Source: Apostichopus japonicus (Eukaryota; Echinodermata; Holothuroidea; Aspidochirotida; Stichopodidae). Taken from it: DNA of 64,000 nt. The notes beneath the pieces are model-generated. The model was not told the origin of the DNA. It ran no database searches and was given only the letters and a program-made list of their open reading frames with translations. Within the stretch, counting starts at the first letter, position 1; each line of letters opens with the position of its first letter. Location: contig NC_092569.1 in assembly GCF_037975245.1 (NCBI RefSeq), positions 30,508,668 to 30,572,667 on the forward strand. Direction: 5' to 3'. Both the position numbers and the translations under genes were made by a program. Below are positions 5,313-56,900 of the stretch, in pieces.

Positions 5313-5803
5313 TCATTGACTTGGCCGTATTTTCATTGTTGTTGCTGTTATACCGCAATCAGAACCCTGAAGATTCGTCCAGAAGATACCGCGGTTATCG
5401 TTGTACGAGTAGTCACCATTCAGATTGGAGTAGCCACATGAATAGAAAGTTGTCGCATAGGCCTGGTTTTTGTTTCGGCAGCATTTATAAGGGTAATTAC
5501 CACTACAGCTATCACAATTTGTGCATTTATGTTCACGGCGATAATCGTATTCATGACAAAAGCAATAATTATGCAGACAATAATATTGAAAATAATAACA
5601 ATAACAGTCAGAGTACTCGTATCCACCTGTAGCTACGCGGTTGCTGAATGAGTAGCAGTGGTTGGAAGAGCCCGTGCTTCTATCGTATGCATACCACCAG
5701 CCACCTTGGTGTTTTTCTGCACAGTCGAAGGTACTCGATCCATCGTTGTCTTGATCGTGCGTACTAAATCGATACCCTGAATTTGCTCCCATAGCATTGT
5801 TAC
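5313..5803 (-). CDS. Gene A exon 8: FReD 2 C-terminus with Cys/Tyr-rich insert
   Basis: 491 nt ending in TGA. Order: FSTHDQDNDGS (calcium site, about 452-462), DCA (Cys467), GGWWY (473-477), then 84 residues (478-561) with 11 cysteines and many tyrosines, then CGYSNLNG (Cys562), GIFW and MKIRPSQ. In ordinary FReDs only a few residues separate GGWWY from the NLNG cysteine. B keeps the frame open through an insert of different length, which supports coding. Confidence 0.87.
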
Positions 5804-8800
5804 CTGGAAGGAAATTAGCAAATACTGAATGAAGGTATTTTCTTGTAAAATACGAAGTTTTTTCCTTTTATATATACTGGACACTATTAAGTCACTTTAG
5901 GTTCGTTTGCTATAGTTGTAGGTTATAATTGCGTTGGTTATTTTGTTCGTTTAAGTTGGGCTTACGTTATATTTTTGTGGTTTCATATACGAGTGCTAAA
6001 TTATCGTAAGGGAGTTTACAATATTGAACAAAGGAGTCAAGTTTGCGATTTTTTATTGGAACGATTCCAATTCTGTAAATTCGTCTGGGACCTCATTTGA
6101 GAACATCGTTAATTATAACAATATTTTTCTCAATGCCAGTATTGTATTTATATCATTGTTTTGTTTCCTTTGACAAATATTAATTATTAAAATAGTAGTG
6201 AGTGACAGATTAGCAGAAATGTAATCGGTGCCTTTTTTTGAAGATTAACTTTTAGCATTTTGTAAAATATATAGTGTTGACTGTTCAATATATGCTAGGC
6301 GCTCAAATAAAAGGGAAGTTAATAAAGTTTTTGGTTGTATCATTCATGGCATCATCTACTCTCGTGATAACGTTTTAATTTCCATACTGACAGATTTCTT
6401 CCATTTGATATCGACGAGCTAATAGTTTACAATATGATTATACATTTCTAACGATAAGAAATACGGCAAGTAATGCTCTTTAAGAATGTAACACATACAA
6501 TTCGTCTCGAATGATCTCTTTAAAAAACTGTCCGAATTATTTGGATACTTTTGATGTTATTATTGCAATATCATTGGCCTCTCAATCAATGTAATGAACA
6601 AATAATGCATGGTCAAATGAAACTTAATTTTCTTTGTTTGGAAATGATAAAGTCGTTCTTAAAAAAGAATAATTGAATTTAAACTTTAATAACATATTTC
6701 AATCACAAAGTAAGCTGAAAAGATGCAGCAATCATTAGATTCCTAGACTGGTTATTATTCCTTTACGTTTTAAGCTCGACAAGGTCTGGGTGAAATTTGC
6801 GAGCAAGCAGACGCTACTAACTATATAAGAGTGGTTGATATAATATATTATGATGTTAAAACCATATATACTTTCACCAACACGTGCTAAAGTGCAAAAC
6901 AACGTGTAATGAGCAATGCGCACGGGAATCTATGCTCAACGTCTAATACAGTTCTACATTAGTACAAACACTAGATTTATAACATGACTTTGAGCATATG
7001 TACGAGTACAAATCAAAGACTGTGATTACGACTACAGGTAGTTATGTTATAAGAATATTATGTAATAACTGCGTGTGATTACGTATGCGTATGATTGACA
7101 TTTGTGATTGCGTATGATTGCATATGATTGACTGCGTATGATTGACATTAAGCAAAATACATACCAGCATTTCCACTGTAGCCATCCAAAGACAGTTGGT
7201 ATTTATCTCTCTCGTTACTGATACTGAAAGATGAATAACGGCTGTGGTATGTTGATCCTTCCCTGTTTGTCTTTTCTATTAGAAGTTGGTAGTTTATGTC
7301 TGTTTGTTGTGTCAAACTGTATATTTTGTCGTTGCCAATCCAGTGGTCTCCTGTGGGAATTCCAAAACCGTGTTTGTACTCATTCCAGTTTCGATAAAAG
7401 TTGACGGAGCTACTTGTACGTCGTTGCAAAATCTAGAATGAGAATCAAAAAGTTTATCGATTGGATGTGAGTAATATATGAAATATCTCATTTGTACTAC
7501 AGTAATTTAGAGAAATTAACTGGTGAAGGTCAATATCCGATTGGATTAAAGCGATAGGAAGATGGATCAATTTAATCAAATAATTGAATTATTTAATTAA
7601 AATGTTAGTGAGAGAGGTCATGTTATATGAAAAAATTAAAATTTAACATGGTAAAATTCTGTTTTTTCAATAGTTAAAACTTACTGTCCAACCACCACTA
7701 GACATTTCACAATATACTTCAAAACCAGAGCTTTCAGCGGGATAAATGGTATATGCTCCGTTATTTGTTCTGTTAGCTGCGTACAGATCAGAACAATCTA
7801 TCGGTCCACTGCGGGTACATGTAAGACCATCGCCTTCAAACCATTCGTTACAGTAACATCTACGGACATCATTCCGCTCCTCGCAGGTTGCGTCTGCGCT
7901 ACAACTGTAACTCTCACTTGTGAGTACGTTACTGTTGCAAGTTATCCGTAAGGAACAGTTAGAATTAATGTATGATTCACCTTCCTGGAAAAGATAAACG
8001 TTAAACGACATATTCCAGTGAAAATAAAATTAATGTTCATTTAGAACAACGCTTGGTAACGCTCTATTAGTAAAACTGAATTTCTAATACTAAATGGTCG
8101 TGAGCGTTTTAAATGTCTCCTTCTGGGGTTAATTGCTTTGGATGCCTTGTATTTTGCTAGGTCTCAATTAGAAGACTTTTGCAAGAACACGTAAAACCGA
8201 AATGGAAGTGAAAATTAATATCATCAATAATCATGAGAATTAATAACAGATCAAATAAAAAGTAAGGTCAATCAATTGAAGCGTATTGGTAGAGTATTTT
8301 TGATGATATAGATTAAGACTTGTGAACGGCATCAAATAAACTTACTGCTAATACGACGCTGTCCTCTTGGACGTAACAGCCACATTGCTCTTTAGGTATG
8401 CAGCTATCTCCAAGAACCATGTGGTTTTCTGTACAAAGACATCTCTCTGGATCCACTGGATCCGGTATGACACAATCAGTTGGATTCTCACAAGTTCTTT
8501 CACATGTATTATCATAATTATCCTTGTTGGATGAGCACCAGGTGATGGGTAAATCTGGGGAAGTTGAAACCACAGCAAGTTAATCTTAGCTTGAAGTGTT
8601 AACTCACTGTTATGACCATAATTTTTTAGCGAATCGTGTTACCATTGTAATGCTCTGGGCGCTCGGAACATTTGCTGATTGTTAAAATATGATCAAATGT
8701 AAGCCGGATTTTGTATTGTTAAGGCTCATTCAACGTATACTCATTTATGTCACACATTAAAAATAATATTGCATTATCAAGTATTCGACTATGGGAATCA

Positions 8801-11800
8801 ATCAATATAGTTGTGTATGATAATCATTTCCTCCATTTAAACTTTTCTGTAAGCATTTTTAATTTCCGTTTTGACTACAAACATATGAAGAAAATAATTT
8901 AGAACAAGTCTTACCTGTTATTCCTTCGACACCCCCAAGACTTGTTATAGAATAATTCCCCCATTCATCGGCAATGCGAAAGTTGTCGTATGTCAAGGAA
9001 TATGACTGGCCTGCATAATTCTCTAGCTCGATGTGCAGCTGGTACCTCTTTTGGTTTATCAAATGAGCTAACTTTTCATTACCAATCAGAAATTCACTGT
9101 CTAAGAAACCAATTCCGTGTTTGTATTCATACCAGGTTCGATTAAAACCGATGGATCCATCAACACGTCGTTGTATGACCTGAATAGTAAACAAAAAATA
9201 GGTAGACAACTAACGGATAAATTTCATTAACTTATGATCTTAACCTTATAGCCAAAATTTGCTGCTCGCCTAAATTAATACGAATTGGATAGAACACATT
9301 TGTGATGTTGCGTTATATATTATCATAATACATATCTAGATCACTAGCCTAGTTGTGCAGAGATTTTTTTTATTTTTATAATCGTTTACAATTTTAATGT
9401 AATTACTCTGGGTAGTTTTGTTTCCGATATTAGGCTTCAAATATTCATACATCGTACAAGGTATATCATCCGACACACTGTACAACTAAAATTAACTGAA
9501 AATTTGAATGTGTCCTACAAAGTTTGTCTTGGAGAGTAATCTCTGTGATTGTAAGTGTTCATTTCTTGAAATATATTACTTGCTGTCCAACCTCCAGATG
9601 TAGTGTTGTGATCACAATTTGTCTGAAATGGTTCCGGATACTGGTCAGGTTTAATCAGGTACACACCGGATTTGGCGTTGGTAGAAGAGCATTGGTTAAG
9701 TACTTCATGACAATCCCTTGGATACTCCGGAGTTTGGAATAGAAAATACTGCAAGTCTAGCACCACGATAATGTATGAAGAAGAGGAGAACAAATCGTAA
9801 AACTGTTGTAGATACAGTTCCATATGTAAAGAATTATTTAAAGAAAAATATTATATAGGGCTACATCGCAATAGTTTTGTTGGAACTACACAGTAAACCT
9901 GACGTGTTCAGTAATATGAACCATAAGAAAATGCATTCAATCTTGTTCGGCTAGTTTTCATGGAGGCTAATATGAGCAAGTATATTTCATTTGAAATGAG
10001 AATCTAACGCAAAGATCTACCGTGAATCTGTTGCGACATGGTCACAGAAGCAAACATGATTAGTAATGGATTAGTAATGGCTAATCCTCAACATGACGGT
10101 ATGATTTTGCCCTATATTCACCTTACAACAATCTAACGTTCATCAGCACTGACCGGAGATTTGAAAGTGCCAAATTATTGAACGAGCCTACAGTATACAA
10201 AGTTTAAACAAAGTGCGTGTTTTGTCCCTTCTGTTACTGTGATTCTCCTTTTAGCCTCTGAAGAAGATCCTGCTAGGATCGAAACGTCAGGTCAACTTAC
10301 TTTGAACAAATTACTAACTAATATGAATGAATATAATCAGAACTATTTTTTATCGCTTGAAATAAAATTGACTAATGACTTGTATTTCTTTCAGTGTAAC
10401 TATCGCGGAGTATCTACAATTTACCCCAATCAGCGCTAAAACTACTTCAATACACAGTACAAGGAAATTATTGAGAATTGTAAATTATTATTTATCTTAC
10501 AAATTGAAATAGGAGAATGTACAACATATGAAGTACATCTAGATGGTTCCTTTCTTTATTAAACTTTTCCGAATTATGATTTAGATAACAAATTTATGTT
10601 AATTGGTTAGTTTTCGGTAGTTTATATTAACCGTTACCATTACAGAACGAAAACTTACTTGAATTGTTGACTCTTGTGCTTGACGATATCTGATGTAACA
10701 AAATATAAAGGAAATGTACGATTAAGCAAAGTACATTCTAAAGAAACAATATCGAGTTAAGAAGGTTGTACGAAGGTCAATATATCACAAAAAACAGGAC
10801 ATACGCCTATCTATTACACCTTAATTTTAACAGATACTATCATTTTTAGTTTCAATACACAAAACAGAATTGTATAGCCTATTAAAATAACAGCTGATTT
10901 CGCTTTTGATTCAAATAAATGAACTATTTCCAACTTGTCAATTATTATAGAAAAAGATGATTAGAACGGAAAGAAAATTTCACATTCCAAAATCTAAGCA
11001 GTAATATTATGTTTCGCAATCTTAATATTTCTTAAACATTGATTTTACTGTTTATTAGCATAGCTGATATTAAAAGTATTTATTGAATAGCTTTAACTGT
11101 TTGAAAATATGATTGTATGTATGTTTGCATGTCTTCTAATACTTCTTATTTATCATTACTATACATAAAACAATCGTAAGTCACCATACACTAACTTAAT
11201 TAAGAGATCATAACTACGATAAGCAGATGAAAGTAATAATTCCCTGTGCATTATGCTAATCGAAATGTGAATGACATATTATCTGAGAAAGCGAGAAAAA
11301 AAAACCTACAATATATTATTGAAAGAAATTTAAAAGTACAAACATCAGCATTATCTATGGATTATAAACAAATTGAAACCTTACCCACGTCCTTAAAAAA
11401 AAACATGTATCCGACTGTACATTTTTCGCATGATATATATTTTTTTGCAGTAATGAATGTTGTTAATTGCAGATGTGTTGTGAAATATAAGAAAAAAAAT
11501 AGTTGATATCATTAGGCTTTTATCAATATAAAAACCTTGAAGATCGCCAAGGTTGTCTGGAACGCTGCCAGGTTGCATATTATTTACCAAAAGCGGTATT
11601 TTTCATTTTTTTTTTCTTTTTCGCTTACTAAGAACATCTCTTAAAAACGGTGATTTTAAGATTGATGACGTTTTGCAATGTGTTCGTGTCCCTCATACGC
11701 TTCCGTAACCTATTACCAAAAAATGAAAAGGTCTCTATTATGCAGAAACGATGCAATTCAAGAATTCAACGTTTTTTGTTTGGAAATTTAAGTAAAAAAA

Positions 11801-14800
11801 AGAAATAATTGCAGAAATCTCGAACTATTTGCAAACGTATTCTAGTTACAATATTCATGAAATTGTATTCTATTTTTACAATGAGACACTTTATTCTGAG
11901 CTTCTTGAAAAGAAATGAAGAAAATTCATGATCCGTAAATCTTTGATCTCCTAGTGGTGTTCGTATAGTAAGCTAAGTGAAATTATCTATAGCGGGAAAC
12001 TGGATATATGATGCTTATGAGGTACTTATACACTGGGACAACGTGCAATTTACCCTCAAAGCTTGAAAATAGCCAAGTTTTGAAAATATGTCCAAAAAAA
12101 GGGCAACCAACCAACATTAAAAATTCATCCGTTGTGAAGAAGAGTATTGTTTGTTTCGATACGTACAAACCACTTGATTGACTTGGACAAGCATCAACAA
12201 CACAATATATCTTTTTTGTCTTGAACATCACAAAACACGTTTACGTTTTACGCCCCAGCTACTGAAGCTAATTTTCGTTCGCCTGAAAGCTACAACTGCT
12301 ACAACAACTTTTTGCGACAACAACTTTTTGCTCATAGAAAATATGTCGATATTTTTAGAAATATTGTACTCAGAACGTATGCAATAAGTAAGGCTTTCAA
12401 TGTACACACATTATGCAGAGTTATCTGTAACCTACAAAAACATTGTTAAAGTAATATTTTATATTTTTATAAATAAAAAAAAAACAAGTTTAAGATCGGA
12501 GTTGAAAATATTTGGGCAAAGCTTAACACATGTATGACGATTCACGCTCAATTAAAATAACCTCATGTATAGCAAAAGACAAGTTAGCGTATCCATAACG
12601 AAAACTGTTTGAATTACCTTTGTCTACATCAGCAAAAACGATACTCTTTTGGCAACTTTACGTTTACTGTATCTATTTAAGACAGAACACCATTATTGAA
12701 AGCCCCACAGCCTCCCCGTGAACATAGCTCTCATGAAAACACATCCTTGCTCATAACAAAACGTGCATGAATATTTTTTTTTTTTTATCTTTGATTGGCG
12801 TAATTCTCTGAAGTATCCTAAGTCAAGGATAACACATAATATCATAACGACACATATTTGTCTTTTGTTCCCTTGATATAAAAGGAAGTGTCATTTGACG
12901 CCTGTGCGAAAAGCTTCGTATGAAAGAAAGTAAGATACTGCGTTGAAGGAGGAAATAATTCAGATATATTGCATGAAATGCACGATCCGTCTAATTCAGT
13001 AAAACATCACATTTATCCTATTGAATATAACATATACAAATTAGTTAGTATTTTATTTGTGCATTGGTTCACGAGACTTCTTACATGGTCTACATGTGCT
13101 GAGATTATCCGATAGCTCGTATTAATTATGTATGTTGGGAGAAAGAAGCTAATGATATACCAGTCGTGCATAAATTCTTCTTCAAACGATATTTTCGTCG
13201 GAGTAGTTATGAAAACATATAAGTGCCTAAGTAAACGATATCTGTTAACTTTAAAAGAAATGATAGGTAACTGGTCAACAGACACATCAAATTTCAAATG
13301 TGACTCTGTAAAGTTATATCCATTTTGAAATTTTGTCACAATCAACATTATCTAGTTTCCCTCAAAACAACAGGATTTTCAATAATAGCCGTTCTTTCCT
13401 ACGTGATCACGTATTGTATGGTAACATTTTCAATTTTTTTTTTTTTAATTATAGACTTTGCAAAAAGGAACGAAGAAATGATGGATACAAGCCTGTTTTT
13501 TCGACAACGTGGCAAAAAACTCTGAATCGTAAATTCTAAAGTTTATACAGTTTTGTTCAATTTTGAAAAACAGAATCAGGAACTTAACGACGGAAACGCA
13601 CAGCGAGAAGGCAAACGCATGTATTTATTGTTTGGTCTGGGATGATTGAGTAATGTTAATAAACAAGTCTGTTTTACTATTCTCCTTTTTCTTGACATTT
13701 GCTTGGTACAATAAAAACAAAAATCTTAGCATGAATCTTTTTTTATGATTGTGGGTTAGTAGACGATCTTCTCGATGCTATTTGCAAAATATCAAAAGTA
13801 ACAACGTTTCACATTGATTTTTTTATTTTACTTTATTTTTAATTTTTTATCACTTTTCATAACATTAAGGTTATAATTTTCGTACTTTATTTAATTTTAA
13901 TGCGGCGTTTCGTGCAAACTTCTTACAAATATGTTGGATAAAAGAATATCTTAATTTAGTTGATGATTATTACATTGACATGCGTCAAACTCATCCCTAT
14001 GATAAACGCACATGACCGAATCGAACACATTATTAATAGATACATGTGTAATACGATGCAATGACCGCCATAGAGAAACAAGACATTGGAGAACAAACAG
14101 TGTTACCTTAACCCGCAAAATCATAAATGGAACGATTGAAATTTAGGGGCTGATACATTTTAAGAAGAAACATTAAGATTGATATGAAAAAAAATTCAAG
14201 ACAAAATACAGAATTATTACGATACACATTTTGTACACGAAACTGTTGGAGACGGGGTTACTTGGCTTACAAATATTGGTTGCCAAATTACCTGTATCAA
14301 ATATAAGGTGTTTTGGGGATGTTTGGCAAATAATTGTTGATCATTTTGAGATACATTTTGTTTCCTTTTCTGTATTTGCATGATGAACTGATCAATATAT
14401 ATTCGTACGTAGGCCTACGCAGCTGTATTGAAGAGTGTGTTACATTAATGCGTTTATTATGTTATGTTTTACAGATACCTACTTAACATATTAACACTTT
14501 TGAATTGATCTATTACTGTTTTTGTAGTTTAAAATCGATTTTTAAATGTTGCACACATAAACTGTAACAATACTGAAGTTTTGTAAGCTCTTTTTGAAGA
14601 AAACAAAATACTGTTTAGCCATATTGCGTAAAGCTGTCATATACATGTACACGAATAACCATTAATACTTTAAGTTGACATTCTAACGTCTTTGTATTAT
14701 GAATTATGTTTTTCGATTATTGAATCCAACCTATTAAGCATATCAGTATAAAGTTGTTAATCTAGCAAATTGGATATTAAACTTATTCAAAAGTTTATTT

Positions 14801-23438: not shown

Positions 23439-36733
<13,295 letters not shown>

Positions 36734-47863: not shown

Positions 47864-47994
47864 TTATATGATCACTTCGTGTGAATATAAACCACCTCTG
47901 TGTTTTTCTGCGCAATCGAAGGTACTCGATCCATCATTGTTTTGATCGTGCGTACTAAATCCATATCCTGAATTTGCTGCCATTGCGTTATTAC
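47864..47994 (-). CDS. Gene C exon 10: truncated FReD 2 C-terminus
   Basis: 131 nt. After FSTHDQNNDGS and CAEKHRGG the homology to A and B stops at about 47,891 and the frame reads LYSHEVII then TAA. The sequence beyond the junction matches what lies about 1 kb further downstream in gene A (around 4,590-4,652), so an internal deletion removed the rest. Confidence 0.75.
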
Positions 47995-50900
47995 CTAGAA
48001 GGAAATAAACAAATACTTAATGAAGTTATATTTTTTTCAAGTCTTGTTATTTGCATACTGGACGTTATTAAACTACCGGGGTTAGTTTGCTGTAATTGTC
48101 GGTTGTTAGTGCGTTTGTTGTTGTGTTAGTTCATGCTTGGATTTGACTTTAATTTAAGTTTTTTCATATAGAAGTTCTTGAGCTTTCCCAAATAGGTGTC
48201 AATTTCCGGTCAATTTTGACGATTTTCTTTGGGAGCCTTAGTTCATAAATCGTTCATAAATAAATAATATATATTTGATATAAATAGTAAACGCTATGGT
48301 ACTTTTCAATTTTGTGACGAATATTATTTAGTAAAGCGTTTAAAGGTAAATTGTGTCATGAGTAGAAATGTAAACAGCAAATTCTTTGTAGTACTTCAAT
48401 TTCTGACAAATGAAATGTGTAGTTTTGCTTTTTAAACTACTAGGTTTTCAAATAAGAAGAAAAACATGTAAAGTGTTGGAATTTCTCATCTTTGTCACCA
48501 TCATCTTTGTGGAACGTCTTAGCTTGCATCTGACGTTTTTACATCCTTTTGATCATTAAAAAATAATAAGATACCTACATTTATTATTATACATTTATAC
48601 ATATAAGAAATAATGCAGGTAGTGCCATTTGGAAATGTAAAACGAACAATTTTCTTGACTGATCTCTCACAAAAACGTCCGAATTATTTGATATTTTCTA
48701 TTACCATTGTAATATGATAGGCCTCTTGATAATTCCATGAACAAATATTCAATGGTCTAATGAAACTTAATTTGTTTCTCTTTTGAAAACGGTAAAGTCA
48801 TGTTTCATGATATTTCTAGGTTCCCATGATAGTTATTTTGCCTTTCTTTTCTAAGATTGACAAAGTCTATATGAAAGTGCAAGGTCTAGTACATACCTAA
48901 GTATCTACACTATATTTGTAACATGACCTGAGTATATGTACGAGTGTAATTCCTATAGTGTGATTACAACTACAGGTAGTTATGTTAGAATAATATTATG
49001 TAATAACTAAAAGTCTGCGTATGATTGACATTTAGCACAATACATACCAGCATTTCCATTGTAGCCATCCAATGACAGTTGGTATTTGTCTCTCTCGTTA
49101 CTGATACTGAAAGATGAATAACGGGTGTGGTATGTTGATCCTTCCGTGTTTGTCTTTTCTATTAGGAGTTGGTAGTTTTTTTTATTTGTCAATTTGTATA
49201 TTTTATCGTTGCCAATCCAATGATTTCCTGTGAGACTTCCAAACCTGTTTTTGTACTCATTCCAGTTTCGATAAAAGCTGACGGATCTACTTGTACGTCG
49301 TTGCAAAATCTGTAAAGAGAATCACTTAGTTTATATATGAAAAGTAAGTAATGTATGAAATATCACATTGTACTACAATAAGCAAGATAAATTAATTGAA
49401 GGTCAATAATCCGATTTGTTTTAAACTGAAAGGAAGATGGATCATTTAATTAAATAATTGAATGATTTACTTCAAATGTTAGTCAACGAAGTCCTGTCAT
49501 ATAAGAAAACACAAGTTTAACATGGGAAAGCTATTGATTGTCAATGGCTAAACTTACTGTACAACCCCCACTAGAAAATTCACAAAAAACTTCAAACCCG
49601 GAGCTTCCAGCGGGATAAATGGTATATTTTCCGTTATTTCTTCTACCCGCTGTGTGAAGATCAGAACAATCTCTCGGTCCACTGCGGGTACATGTAGCAC
49701 CATCACCTTCAAACCATTCGTTACAGTAACATCTACGGATATCATTCCGCTCCTCGCAGGTTGCGTCTTCACTACAACTGTACCTCTCACTTGTTAGTGC
49801 GTTACTGTTGCAAGTAATCCGTAAGGAACAGTCAGAATTTATGTATGATTCACCTTCCTGGAAAGATAAATGTTAAACGACATATTCCAAATATAGTAAA
49901 ATATATGTTAATTTGTTACATTTTTAACGACTTTTGATGACACACTGGATTAAAACTAATATACGGTCATAAGCGTTTTAAAGATATTAGGTAAAGTTCA
50001 TCGTTCTGAATGTATCATAATTGCGTTGCCATATCTATGTATTTTCGCTAGGTCTAAATGAATTACAGGCAAATAATTTAAGATACCCTAAAAGATTCGT
50101 ACTGACCCTTACTACACTTCCTTTGGCAGCAACGAAGCAGTTGTGGGTGCACGTCACTCCGTCACCTTGGTAGTTTTGATTGCAGTAACATTTACGGACA
50201 CCGTTCCTCTCATCACAGGTTGCATGATCACTACACTGGTAACTCGCCTCTATTATCTGGTTGTTGCTACAAGTTGATCTTCGTGTACATCTTGAATTGA
50301 TGTAAAACTCGGCTTCCTAATATAAGATATTCAGTGAGAAAAATATAATAATAAAGGAATTTTGGATTTGCGGTTGTCACAGTGAAAGGTACAGCATTGC
50401 AAGATTGGCTGGCCAATTTCATTTTTTTCTGGCAAAGAATATCAACTTTTAAGAAAGTTTAATGCGGTCTTTGCAGCCATCTCTGGTGTTGGGGGCCTAG
50501 GGATTTAAAATTATTTTGTTTTGTTTAAAGTAGCTGTCAAATGTTGCATTCCTTGAAGGTTTATAGCCACTAAAAACTTAAAATACGTTTGAAACGCACT
50601 ATTTAGGTAAGAAGTACCCAATAATATTCTTTAAGGTTTTTAAAGGAATGCACACCCGTAGAAGTAATATTATGCTTCTGACTAAATGTAAAACATCCCT
50701 CGACTGACACTTTTGCCTGGCCTGTCGAATAAAATGGGATCCAAGGTCCCTGCCTAACCACGATGCGCTCACCACACGGTTATCTTTAAATGTAATGCGA
50801 TACTTGACAAGTTTATATAGTAAATGTTTGCATGAAATAATATGAACAATGAATTAAGAGCTAAGCATTTTAAATGGCATGAAAGAACTGTACTGACCCT

Positions 50901-53900: not shown

Positions 53901-56900
53901 ACCGTTACCCTTACAGAACGAAAACTTACTTGAATCGTTGACTCTTGTGCTTGACGATATCTGATGTAACAAAAAATTAAAGGAAATGTACGATTAAGCA
54001 AAGTACATTCTGAAGAAACAATATCGAGTTAAGAAGGTTGTACGAAGGTCAATGTATCACAAAAAACAGGACATATGCCTATCTATTACACCTTCATTTT
54101 AACATATACTACCATTTTAAAGGAATTGTCTGGTGGAAGATTTTGATACATTGTCTTTGTAGTTATTATTTTTCTCTTTCTAACCATGTAAAAATTGTCC
54201 ACATTCGCCGTTTTCTTCTTGTAGAAATCTGGTTTTCAAATTCACCAGTTTCTCATCAAAAGTACCGTTTGTTCGAACGCTTCAATATGGTGATTGACGT
54301 AGTGGTTGCAGATAGGCAAAACAGGCGACTTGAAGTTAGCACTCCCAATTCCGCAGCAAATAAACTCACGTGTAAGCACATTGGATTGCCTCATATATAT
54401 AACGTACATACTCGCGAACGTATATACTACGATGCTCAGTTGGTGTACTTGTATAGCGTTACACATAGTACACTCACACTCAAACCACAGTTCATTAACT
54501 GTTCTTCGAAATCGCTGAAATAAAATTCACGGATCAAATTAACAGTAAAAGGAAACTTGTAAAGTATTCGTTAAACCGGAAGATGAAACTTGGCGGAATC
54601 GATGTCATCGCAGAACTGTCCGATTGTAAACGTTAGAGTAGGCTATACACGCGAACATTCTTCGCGCTGGAGCTGGATACCGCGATGTGTAAACAACGAA
54701 GAGCCTGCTGTTAAAACTTATCTTGTGTTTCACAAAGACCACGAAACCACCGATCTACTACATATATGGCGGCTTAAGGAGTTTTTTAAATCATATCTAA
54801 TTTATAAGAAATTTCACCGGAAATTATTGAAGAAATTGATCGAATCGTTGTCAGAGCAGAATGTAGCACTGAGAAGCTTAGGCTTCGCAGAACTGTCCGA
54901 TTGTCAACGTTTGAGTATAGCCTACATGCGAACATTTTTCGCGTTGGAGTTGGATAGCGCGATGTATAGCCTGAACAACTCAGAGTCTGCTGTTAAAATT
55001 TACCTTGTGTTACACAAAGACCACGGAACCACCGATCAAGTACATGGCGGCTTAAGGAGTTTTTGAAAACATATCTAATTTTAAAGAAATTTCACCGGAA
55101 ATTAAGGAAGAAACTGTTTTTGTTGTGATTACCGTATAGGTACTGTGCGGAGGGTGGGGTAGGACGCAATCTGCTATGGCAGAGCTGACGTCACGTATTG
55201 TACTGTTCAAATCATATTTGAAATGTCTATCCATAACGATTAAAAAATCGTTTCTCTGTCAAACGCAACATTAGCGTTCTCATTTTTTGACAACATGTTT
55301 GGAAAATTATTTACTATTTTTTAAGCTAACTTCTTTGGGCCACCAGACAATCCTTTTAAGTTTAAATATACAAAGCAGAATTGTATAGCCTATTAAAATA
55401 AAATCTGATTTCGCTTTTGATTCAAATAAATGAACTATTTCCAACTTGTCAATTATTATAGAAACAGGTGATAAGAACGGAAAGAAAATTTCACATTCCA
55501 ATATCTAAGCAGTAATAAAATGTTTCACAATCTTAATGTTTCTTTCACATTGATTTTACTGCTTATAAGCATAGCTAATATTAAAAGTAGGTTTTATTGA
55601 ATATCTTTAATTGTTTGAAAATATGATTATAACTATGTTTTCATGTCTTCTAATACTTCTTATTTATCATTACTATACATAAAACAATCATTAGTCACCA
55701 TACACTAACTTAATTAAACGATCATAACTACGATAAGCAGATGAAAGTAATAATTCCCTGTGCATTATGCTAATCTAAATGTGAATGACATATTATCTGA
55801 GAAAGCGAAAAAAAACTTACAATATATTATTGAAAGAAAATTAAAAGTACAAACATCAGCGATATCCATGGATTAAAAACATATTGAGACCTTACTCACG
55901 TCCTTAAAAATACATGTATCCGACTGTAAATTGTTCGCATGATATATTTTGTTTTGCAGTAATGAATGTTGTTAATTGCAGATGTGTTGTGAAATATAAA
56001 AGAAAAATAGTTGATATCATTAGGCTTTTATCAATATAAAAAACCTTGAAGGCCGCCAAGGTTGTTTGGCACGCTCCCAGGTTGCATATTATTGACCAAA
56101 AGCGGTAATTGTCACCTTTTTACTTTTTCACATACTAAGAACATCTCTTAAAAACGGTGATTTTAAGATTTATGACGTTTTGCAATGTGTTCGTGTCCCT
56201 CATACGCTTCCGTAACCTATTACCAAAAAATGAAAAGGTCTCTATTATGCAGAAACGATGCAATTCAAGAATTCAACGTTTTTTGTTTGGAAAAAAAAGT
56301 AAAAAAAAGAAATAATTGCAGAAATCTCGAACTATTTGCAAACGTATTCTAGTTACAATATTCATGAAATTGTATTCTATTTTTACAATGAGACACTTTA
56401 TTCTGAGCTTCTTGAAAAGAAATGAAGAAAATTCATGATCCGTAAATCTTTGATCTCCTAGTGGTGTTCGTATAGTAAGCTAAGTGAAATTATCTATAGC
56501 GGGAAACTGGATATATGATGCTAATGAGGTACTTATACACTGGGACAACGTGCAATTTACCCTCAAAGCTTGAAAATAGCCAAGTTTTGAAAATATGTCC
56601 AACAAAAGGGCAACCAACCAACATTAAAAATTCATCCGTTGTGAAGAAGAGTATTGTTTGTTTCGATACGTACAAACCACTTGATTGACTTGGACAAGCA
56701 TCAACAACACAATATATCTTTTTTGTCTTCAACATCACAAAACACGTATACGTTTTACGCCCCAGCTACTGAAGCTAATTTTCGTTCGCCTGAAAGCTAC
56801 AACTGCTACAACAACTTTTTGCGACAACAACTTTTTGCTGATAGAAAATATGTCGATATTTTTAGAAATATTGTACTCAGAACGTATGCAATAAGTAAGG

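Follow-up and report, generated by a model that had tools for sequence, protein, structure and literature searches.

To our knowledge, invertebrates have no antibodies, and the source of their many recognition specificities is an open question. A locus of the sea cucumber Apostichopus japonicus raises a specific form of it: what is a long Tyr- and Cys-rich insert, strongly different between two related genes, doing in the ligand-side disulfide loop of a FReD? We analyzed a window of 64,000 nucleotides (the whole stretch of DNA under study, C9:30508668-30572667) and searched the genome it comes from (671,581,487 bases in 35 contigs). The reading we favor, with a probability of roughly 0.6, is that a germline family of probably secreted FReDs carries a hypervariable, disulfide-knotted recognition loop in the P subdomain, which by its motifs would be bounded by WWY and by the second Cys of the disulfide on the ligand side.

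Three related genes in the window

The window holds three related genes, all on the minus strand, as are all exons given below: A (9739 to 5313), B (29000 to 23439) and C (53029 to 47885). Our models of A and B begin at FReD1, of which only the first two parts were found, followed by a Cys-rich exon, EGF-like exon(s) and FReD2. The Cys-rich exon is called TIL-like here after its Cys pattern. In gene A, the exons are the first part of FReD1 (9584..9739, 5' limit uncertain), the FReD1 middle exon (8915..9179, from splice sites and frame), the TIL-like exon (8346..8554), an EGF-like exon that also encodes the first part of FReD2 (7685..7984, with Pfam EGF_3 and Fibrinogen_C), the FReD2 middle exon (7165..7432, from splice sites and frame) and the last FReD2 exon (5313..5803, acceptor CAG/GT, stop at 5313-5315, Pfam Fibrinogen_C), which houses the insert. 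The FReD1 first exon of gene A has an apparent GC donor, not GT, at 9583. Gene B is built from the first part of FReD1 (28857..29000, 5' limit uncertain), its middle exon (28231..28495), the TIL-like exon (27193..27404), an extra EGF-like exon (26734..26943), the EGF-like exon with the first part of FReD2 (25753..26052), the FReD2 middle exon (25239..25500) and the last FReD2 exon, stop included (23439..23938).

Both models exceed the Pfam cut-off for Fibrinogen_C and EGF_3; for Fibrinogen_C (PF00147, cut-off 22) the exons score 41.9 and 32.2 bits and the gene models 277.6 and 282.3. The TIL-like exon has no Pfam match of its own in either gene, and TILa matches fall on the exon(s) after it, at 206-252 in A (below the cut-off) and 272-321 in B (above it). 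No Ig domain is found among the Pfam matches of these models (Fibrinogen_C, EGF_3 and TILa), which start at FReD1 and in which no signal peptide was seen. The tblastn search with the FReD2 last exons detected no third (ligand-side, P subdomain) FReD1 exon, either across the window or in 8915-9739 of A and 28231-29000 of B. Gene C looks like a decayed copy, judged from its sequence: by tblastn and inspection its last FReD2 exon is broken (47885..47995), with the likeness ending after AEKHRGG and no insert.

Several other features of the window may be recorded here. The EGF/FReD2 exon of gene C reads GGCTV in place of GGWTV. Gene B contains at 26338-26400 the relic of an EGF-like exon with a stop upstream, of which gene C has two intact counterparts (51107 and 50316). 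An open reading frame occurs at 11986-12240 and 56493-56765, upstream of A and C, in a 3.6-kb block that is 92% identical between the two places, and a long intergenic TA microsatellite spans 33369-33652.

The insert and its difference between genes A and B

By translation and alignment, GGWWY and the Cys of CGYSNLNG are 84 amino acids apart in gene A (5439..5690) and 87 in gene B (23565..23825). An earlier reading of the sequence alone had reported 11 Cys in the A insert, 13 in the B insert and no stop in either, all of which translation bears out. It had also given the A insert the right length, while placing it at 5478-5729, 39 nt too far upstream, and the residue numbers it gave (478-561 in A, 545-631 in B) assume further, putative residues at the N-terminus. 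The same reading described the two inserts as differing by substitutions and 9 nt; the net length difference is indeed 9 nt, but this understates the divergence, as the alignment has one gap of nine codons in one direction and gaps of five and seven codons in the other.

This divergence is sharply bounded. A and B are similar in the flanking intron, the FReD edges and the 3' DNA, and blastn gives two matches around the insert, intron and 3' DNA included, at 87.9% and 91.8% identity, both of which end at a central core (break at 5484-5604 in A and 23610-23739 in B). In a global alignment, identity per 60 columns is 38-65% within the insert and 75-98% outside. With the family alignment described below, these breaks place the hypervariable core at 5484..5603 in A and 23610..23738 in B. 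In A it consists of a TAT-derived Tyr/Cys tract and a semi-conserved HKCTNCDSCS module; the AAT/ATA-type triplets seen earlier on the opposite strand correspond to TAT codons on the coding strand.

A large family on a single contig

With the gene A exon as query, at least 147 matches were obtained in the genome (150 of 818 candidates scored). We fetched 90 loci, one of which (L001) is gene A itself, and added gene B, giving 74 full-length long-insert copies, 12 other FReDs and five copies that were set aside. Of these five, L073 and L074 have a frame broken in the N flank, ahead of the insert, L075 and L077 have a frame broken across the insert, and L078 is in frame with two stops and a 51-aa insert. 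Since 150 of at least 818 candidates were scored, 74 is a lower bound. Far from being limited to genes A and B, the insert is the most variable part of a family with at least 74 copies.

All of these copies have the long insert and both FReD flanks in one frame and lie on the contig of the window (C9), at 22.46-23.10 Mb (13 copies), 27.76-27.93 (5), 29.75 (2), 30.41-31.41 (39), 32.92-33.68 (14) and 35.75 (1). They encode 71 distinct exon proteins, identical proteins being entered once here and in the other counts of distinct sequences; 57 copies contain no stop, and 55 of these differ from one another in sequence; in 11 of the 17 stop-bearing copies a stop falls within the insert. Of 79 long-insert copies (73 loci, gene B and the five set aside), 77 retain the reading frame through the insert. 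Insert lengths differ by multiples of three through the way copies were delimited, and the evidence on frame is instead this proportion together with the nucleotide indels reported below. At least 62 of the 74 copies have a TIL-like exon on the same strand within 10 kb upstream, among 80 of 150 TIL-like matches.

A comparison by eye of the matches listed for a second, type II query showed no further long-insert group. The Pfam profile gave at least 169 Fibrinogen_C matches in this genome, where 150 of 2,730 candidates were scored. It had no match in 14 control genomes, and no relatives were confirmed in prokaryote genomes and viral contigs. Some copies on C9 are nearly identical at offsets of about 807 kb (L001/L002, L016/L017 and L021/L022) or 382-387 kb (L004/L005 and L006/L007). 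Such near-twins at constant offsets may be recent segmental duplicates or uncollapsed haplotypes.

A fixed framework around a hypervariable core

Across the 55 distinct open copies, mean pairwise identity, with gaps scored as differences, is 0.912 in the N flank, 0.790 in the 5' edge of the insert (29 aa), 0.350 in the core, 0.736 in the 3' edge (14 aa) and 0.852 in the C flank, and 54 of the 55 have distinct cores. In a family with at least 74 members, most variation is located in one loop of one lectin-type domain. Over all 57 open copies the insert ranges from 70 to 104 aa, with 7-13 Cys and 9-28 Tyr. Within the fixed framework edges, the core is formed by two length-variable tracts flanking a semi-conserved KC-x-x-C-x-x-C module, a pattern not found in three of the 55 copies (L026, L035 and L047). 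In the other 52, the first tract (HV1) spans 12-47 aa and the second (HV2) 4-19 aa, a long HV1 tending to occur with a short HV2 and vice versa, and together their residues are 38.0% Tyr and 13.2% Cys.

The first Cys of the ligand-side disulfide is present in 55 of 55 copies and its predicted partner, by position, in 54, the sole miss (L049) being a one-residue alignment shift. Among the putative calcium-loop Asp residues, D19 and D21 of the exon are present in all 55 copies and D17 in 44. The residues equivalent to the S1 pocket were placed through a ficolin alignment and the FIBCD1 sequence. With the residue names used in the available text of PMC3908420, Tyr405 is replaced by His in all 55 copies, His415 by Gly in 54, and Tyr431 by Asp in 50, Gly in four and Asn in one. 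By this placement of our own, the acetyl-binding S1 pocket would be altered in the long-insert family.

Sources of variation in the core

The core has a distinctive codon composition. TAT makes up 29.7% of its codons, compared with 0.2% in the 5' edge, 4.0% in the N flank, 0.4% in the C flank and 12.6% in the 3' edge, and TAT or codons one step from it account for 66.6% of the core versus 21-27% elsewhere. To follow recent changes, we used 20 disjoint near-twin pairs, stop-bearing copies included, whose flanks (about 1.6 kb) are at most 4% diverged (pooled, 391 of 31,563). These flanks contain 49 indels (1.55 per kb), 36 of them of 1 nt and only four a multiple of three. In the codon alignment, the cores of the pairs contain 20 indel events (8.8 per kb), the edges and C flank none and the N flank two, both in L063/L069, a pair in which L069 carries a 1-nt indel close to the start of the exon. 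Counted in nucleotides, 19 of the 25 indels within inserts are multiples of three, as opposed to 4 of 49 in the flanks, and the remaining six (1, 2, 28, 1, 1 and 1 nt) compensate within their pair.

Individual pairs show what these events are. The inserts of L016 and L017 differ solely by one TAT codon, and TAT codons have also been gained or lost in L018/L020, L023/L027 and L058/L066. It had been proposed that slippage could generate both Tyr and Cys codons; for Tyr the L016/L017 pair shows this directly, while Cys codons lie a single point change from TAT (TAT to TGT).

Beside slippage, recombination or conversion also shuffles inserts. In L009 and L035, flanks that are 0.9% apart (14 of 1,562 aligned sites plus four indels) enclose inserts of different types, and the C flank differs at 12 of 126 positions, a pattern that a conversion or exchange tract would leave. 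Further, the upstream intron and the downstream DNA identify the same nearest neighbor in 24 of 72 copies; the discordance in the others is inflated by near-ties among very similar copies. It is strong, by thresholds of our own setting, in 11 of 72; L072 and L076 are excluded here for want of a comparable flank, and also from the codon counts. Both the flank discordances and the single swap of an insert speak for recombination or gene conversion.

Selection, drift and other explanations

The alternative that survives best, although we regard it as rather unlikely, is tolerated drift, in which a TAT microsatellite has grown in a permissive surface loop and has diversified neutrally, through slippage and point mutation, the loop having no part in recognition. 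It would accommodate a composition close to the mutational cloud of TAT, the stops in 17 of 74 copies and the poly-Tyr tracts of variable length that also occur in shorter loops, but not readily the codons that are kept. In 69 distinct inserts the stops TAA and TAG occur 7 times, against 198 for AAT and GAT, which arise from TAT by the same base changes (comparable transversions). Together with the frame kept across the insert in nearly all copies, this implies only that the downstream protein matters. The stronger points are the excess of Cys and its parity. TGT occurs 247 times, against 86 for CAT and 92 for TAC, the other transition products of TAT. The excess is still about twofold (TGT 179) once the fixed Cys positions at the 5' end and in the CPSSRPH motif are removed, and among codons flanked by Tyr codons on both sides the counts are 62 for TGT, 17 for CAT and 10 for TAC.

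As for parity, the insert itself usually has an odd number of Cys (46 of 57 open copies). In 54 of 55 copies an additional framework Cys (GSDCG) comes after it, and the exon total is even in 44 of 55. An even total is the majority state in 23 of 28 HV clusters, with one tied cluster omitted (p = 9e-4), although the p-values for codon counts and parity overstate independence because copies share ancestry. Even Cys totals, like the semi-conserved module within the core, would not be expected of drift in a permissive loop.

Substitution ratios speak less decisively. In a dN/dS-type comparison over the near-twin pairs, pN/pS is compatible with 1 in the core (1.20, bootstrap 0.86-3.41; 1.13 when L009/L035 is removed and 1.48 with another tie rule) and lower in the framework (0.38, 0.20-0.89, for all 20 pairs), where the constraint is not significant when L009/L035 is removed (0.50, 0.22-1.13). 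The core thus appears to lack the sign of constraint that the framework shows. A core pN/pS significantly above 1 was not found in the 20 pairs, and the variability of the core could therefore reflect tolerated drift. Since the pairs were picked for close flanks, framework pS is 2.35-fold the flank divergence and core-to-flank ratios are inflated.

It is also conceivable, but to our judgment improbable, that the loop is structural or adhesive and serves clotting, matrix or wound closure through dityrosine or disulfide cross-links of its Tyr and Cys, and that its variability is a by-product. Such a role would suit tracts in which Tyr and Cys make up about half of the residues (38.0% and 13.2%), as well as the up-regulation of A. 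japonicus FREPs during visceral regeneration (PMC5638244, available text), whereas neither a fixed framework holding 54 distinct cores in 55 copies nor even Cys totals are obviously needed for cross-linking. An artefact, be it an assembly error, a pseudogene array or an unspliced intron, is very improbable: stops in 17 of 74 copies and near-twins at constant offsets might suggest one, but 57 of 74 copies are open, framework pN/pS is 0.38 over all 20 pairs, so many distinct cores are hard to reconcile with assembly noise, and an intron is rejected because no AG is conserved in more than 90% of the 55 copies in the 3' edge and next 40 nt, that is, there is no shared acceptor.

Loops of other FReDs and known structures

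In FIBCD1, the Cys401-Cys414 disulfide joins the calcium site and the S1 acetyl pocket (PMC3908420, available text), and the description of the insert as lying in a disulfide loop beside the calcium site and ligand pocket matches this arrangement. The statement that no FReD with such an insert was known holds in part. It is correct for solved FReDs among the matches listed: 33 solved FReD sequences match a profile of A and B, and none of the best 5 of 33 alignments has a counterpart to the core, while in two ficolins the profile search pairs the C-terminal part of the chain itself with the beginning of the insert. With a tenascin-type end as query, the best 60 of 67 solved sequences carry no more than about 15 additional residues across this entire region.

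Within the genome, on the other hand, the loop is the extreme of a graded series. In all 52 other FReDs sampled, the loop is 14-38 aa long and contains 1-7 Cys (mostly 1, 3 or 5); the sample comprises the 12 fetched with the long-insert loci and 40 short-loop FReDs, all chosen by similarity to the queries, so that canonical loops are under-sampled. Three canonical FReDs of the same genome (C22 and C18) have loops of 2 aa. With loops of 2, 14-38 and 70-104 aa in one genome, loop growth looks graded, as far as these sequences indicate. Many of the 52 have a poly-Tyr tract immediately after WWF or WWY. Its length varies in L091-L123, whose loops reach 38 aa, and it may represent another tract of this type.

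A known domain within the insert was considered and rejected. Searched by itself, the insert matches no Pfam family up to E 0.1, and against PDB sequences the B insert has a single weak match (E 0.34) and the A insert none up to E 1. An AlphaFold model of the A exon, with B as the sole other alignment row, has a pLDDT of 28.8.

In the literature on FReD loops and holothurian FREPs, as represented mainly outside subscription papers, we found no description of such a loop. The A. japonicus genome paper of 2017 describes a strong expansion of the FREPs and places 21 FREP genes in tandem on one scaffold (PMC5638244), and its passages on fibrinogen and FREPs mention neither the insert, nor loop variability, nor triplet slippage. 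One LPS-induced FREP is known from H. glaberrima (PMC2702171), and in the available text of both papers a Tyr/Cys loop is not the subject of the FREP accounts.

Proposed mechanism and implications

Under the recognition-loop reading, we propose that the even number of Cys pairs into disulfides, which would fold the loop into a small knob, and that this knob, not the old acetyl pocket, may contact the ligand. New knobs would keep arising through slippage and point mutation and through recombination or conversion among copies in tandem, and copies with useful ones would be retained, probably for the recognition of microbes.

A broader version of this idea is offered more tentatively, as a possibility we hold at less than even odds. 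Sea cucumbers might maintain, in the germline, a repertoire of antibody-like binding knobs built on a lectin scaffold, with the TAT tract as a self-mutating generator: slippage would set its length, one-step changes would supply Tyr, Ser, Asp, Asn, His and Cys, conversion would shuffle the results, and selection would keep the Cys paired, with the same process running independently in the shorter-loop FReD subfamilies. If true, allelic and possibly somatic variation of the tract would make the repertoire different in each animal. The family offers a visible mutational engine in its in-frame TAT tract, and amplicon sequencing is feasible, as the core is about 120 nt long in A and B and lies in a single exon between conserved edges.

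Comparison with known systems

Among known systems, one close to it is that of the canonical FReD lectins (ficolins, tachylectin 5A, FIBCD1 and tenascin), with which the family shares Fibrinogen_C membership, the canonical disulfide Cys, the calcium-loop Asp and the WWY and NLNG motifs. It differs from them in the length of the loop, which is 2 residues in the three canonical FReDs of the same genome and a short span in the solved ones listed, compared with 70-104 here, and from FIBCD1 also in the changed positions of His415 and Tyr431.

Snail FREPs, which are somatically diversified in Biomphalaria, combine Ig domains with a FReD. Like the family described here, they are an expanded FReD family proposed to act in immune recognition (PMC13428168, available text). 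By contrast, the architecture here is FReD1, TIL-like, EGF and FReD2, and diversity is found mostly in one Tyr/Cys loop, in one assembled genome. Another large and highly variable immune family of echinoderms, 185/333 (SpTransformer) of sea urchins, consists, in the accounts available, of a different protein, in which diversity takes the form of a mosaic of elements with internal repeats and is not concentrated in a single loop on a lectin-type domain.

An analog is found in the ultralong CDR H3 of cattle. According to the available text of PMC5994613, the bovine D segment IGHD8-2 contains 38 codons one step from Cys, and its products show a variable number of Cys and deletions of 3 to 54 nt. 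Both systems have a long, Cys-rich, variable loop with a variable Cys number, codons one step from Cys and in-frame length changes (PMC5994613). The scaffolds are unrelated, and the cow relies on one D segment and AID, whereas the sea cucumber has a germline multigene family; the cow type folds as a disulfide knob on a beta-ribbon stalk, the sea-cucumber loop being known here from its sequence. By analogy, the loop may work like the knob of the cow's ultralong antibodies, but it is no member of that system.
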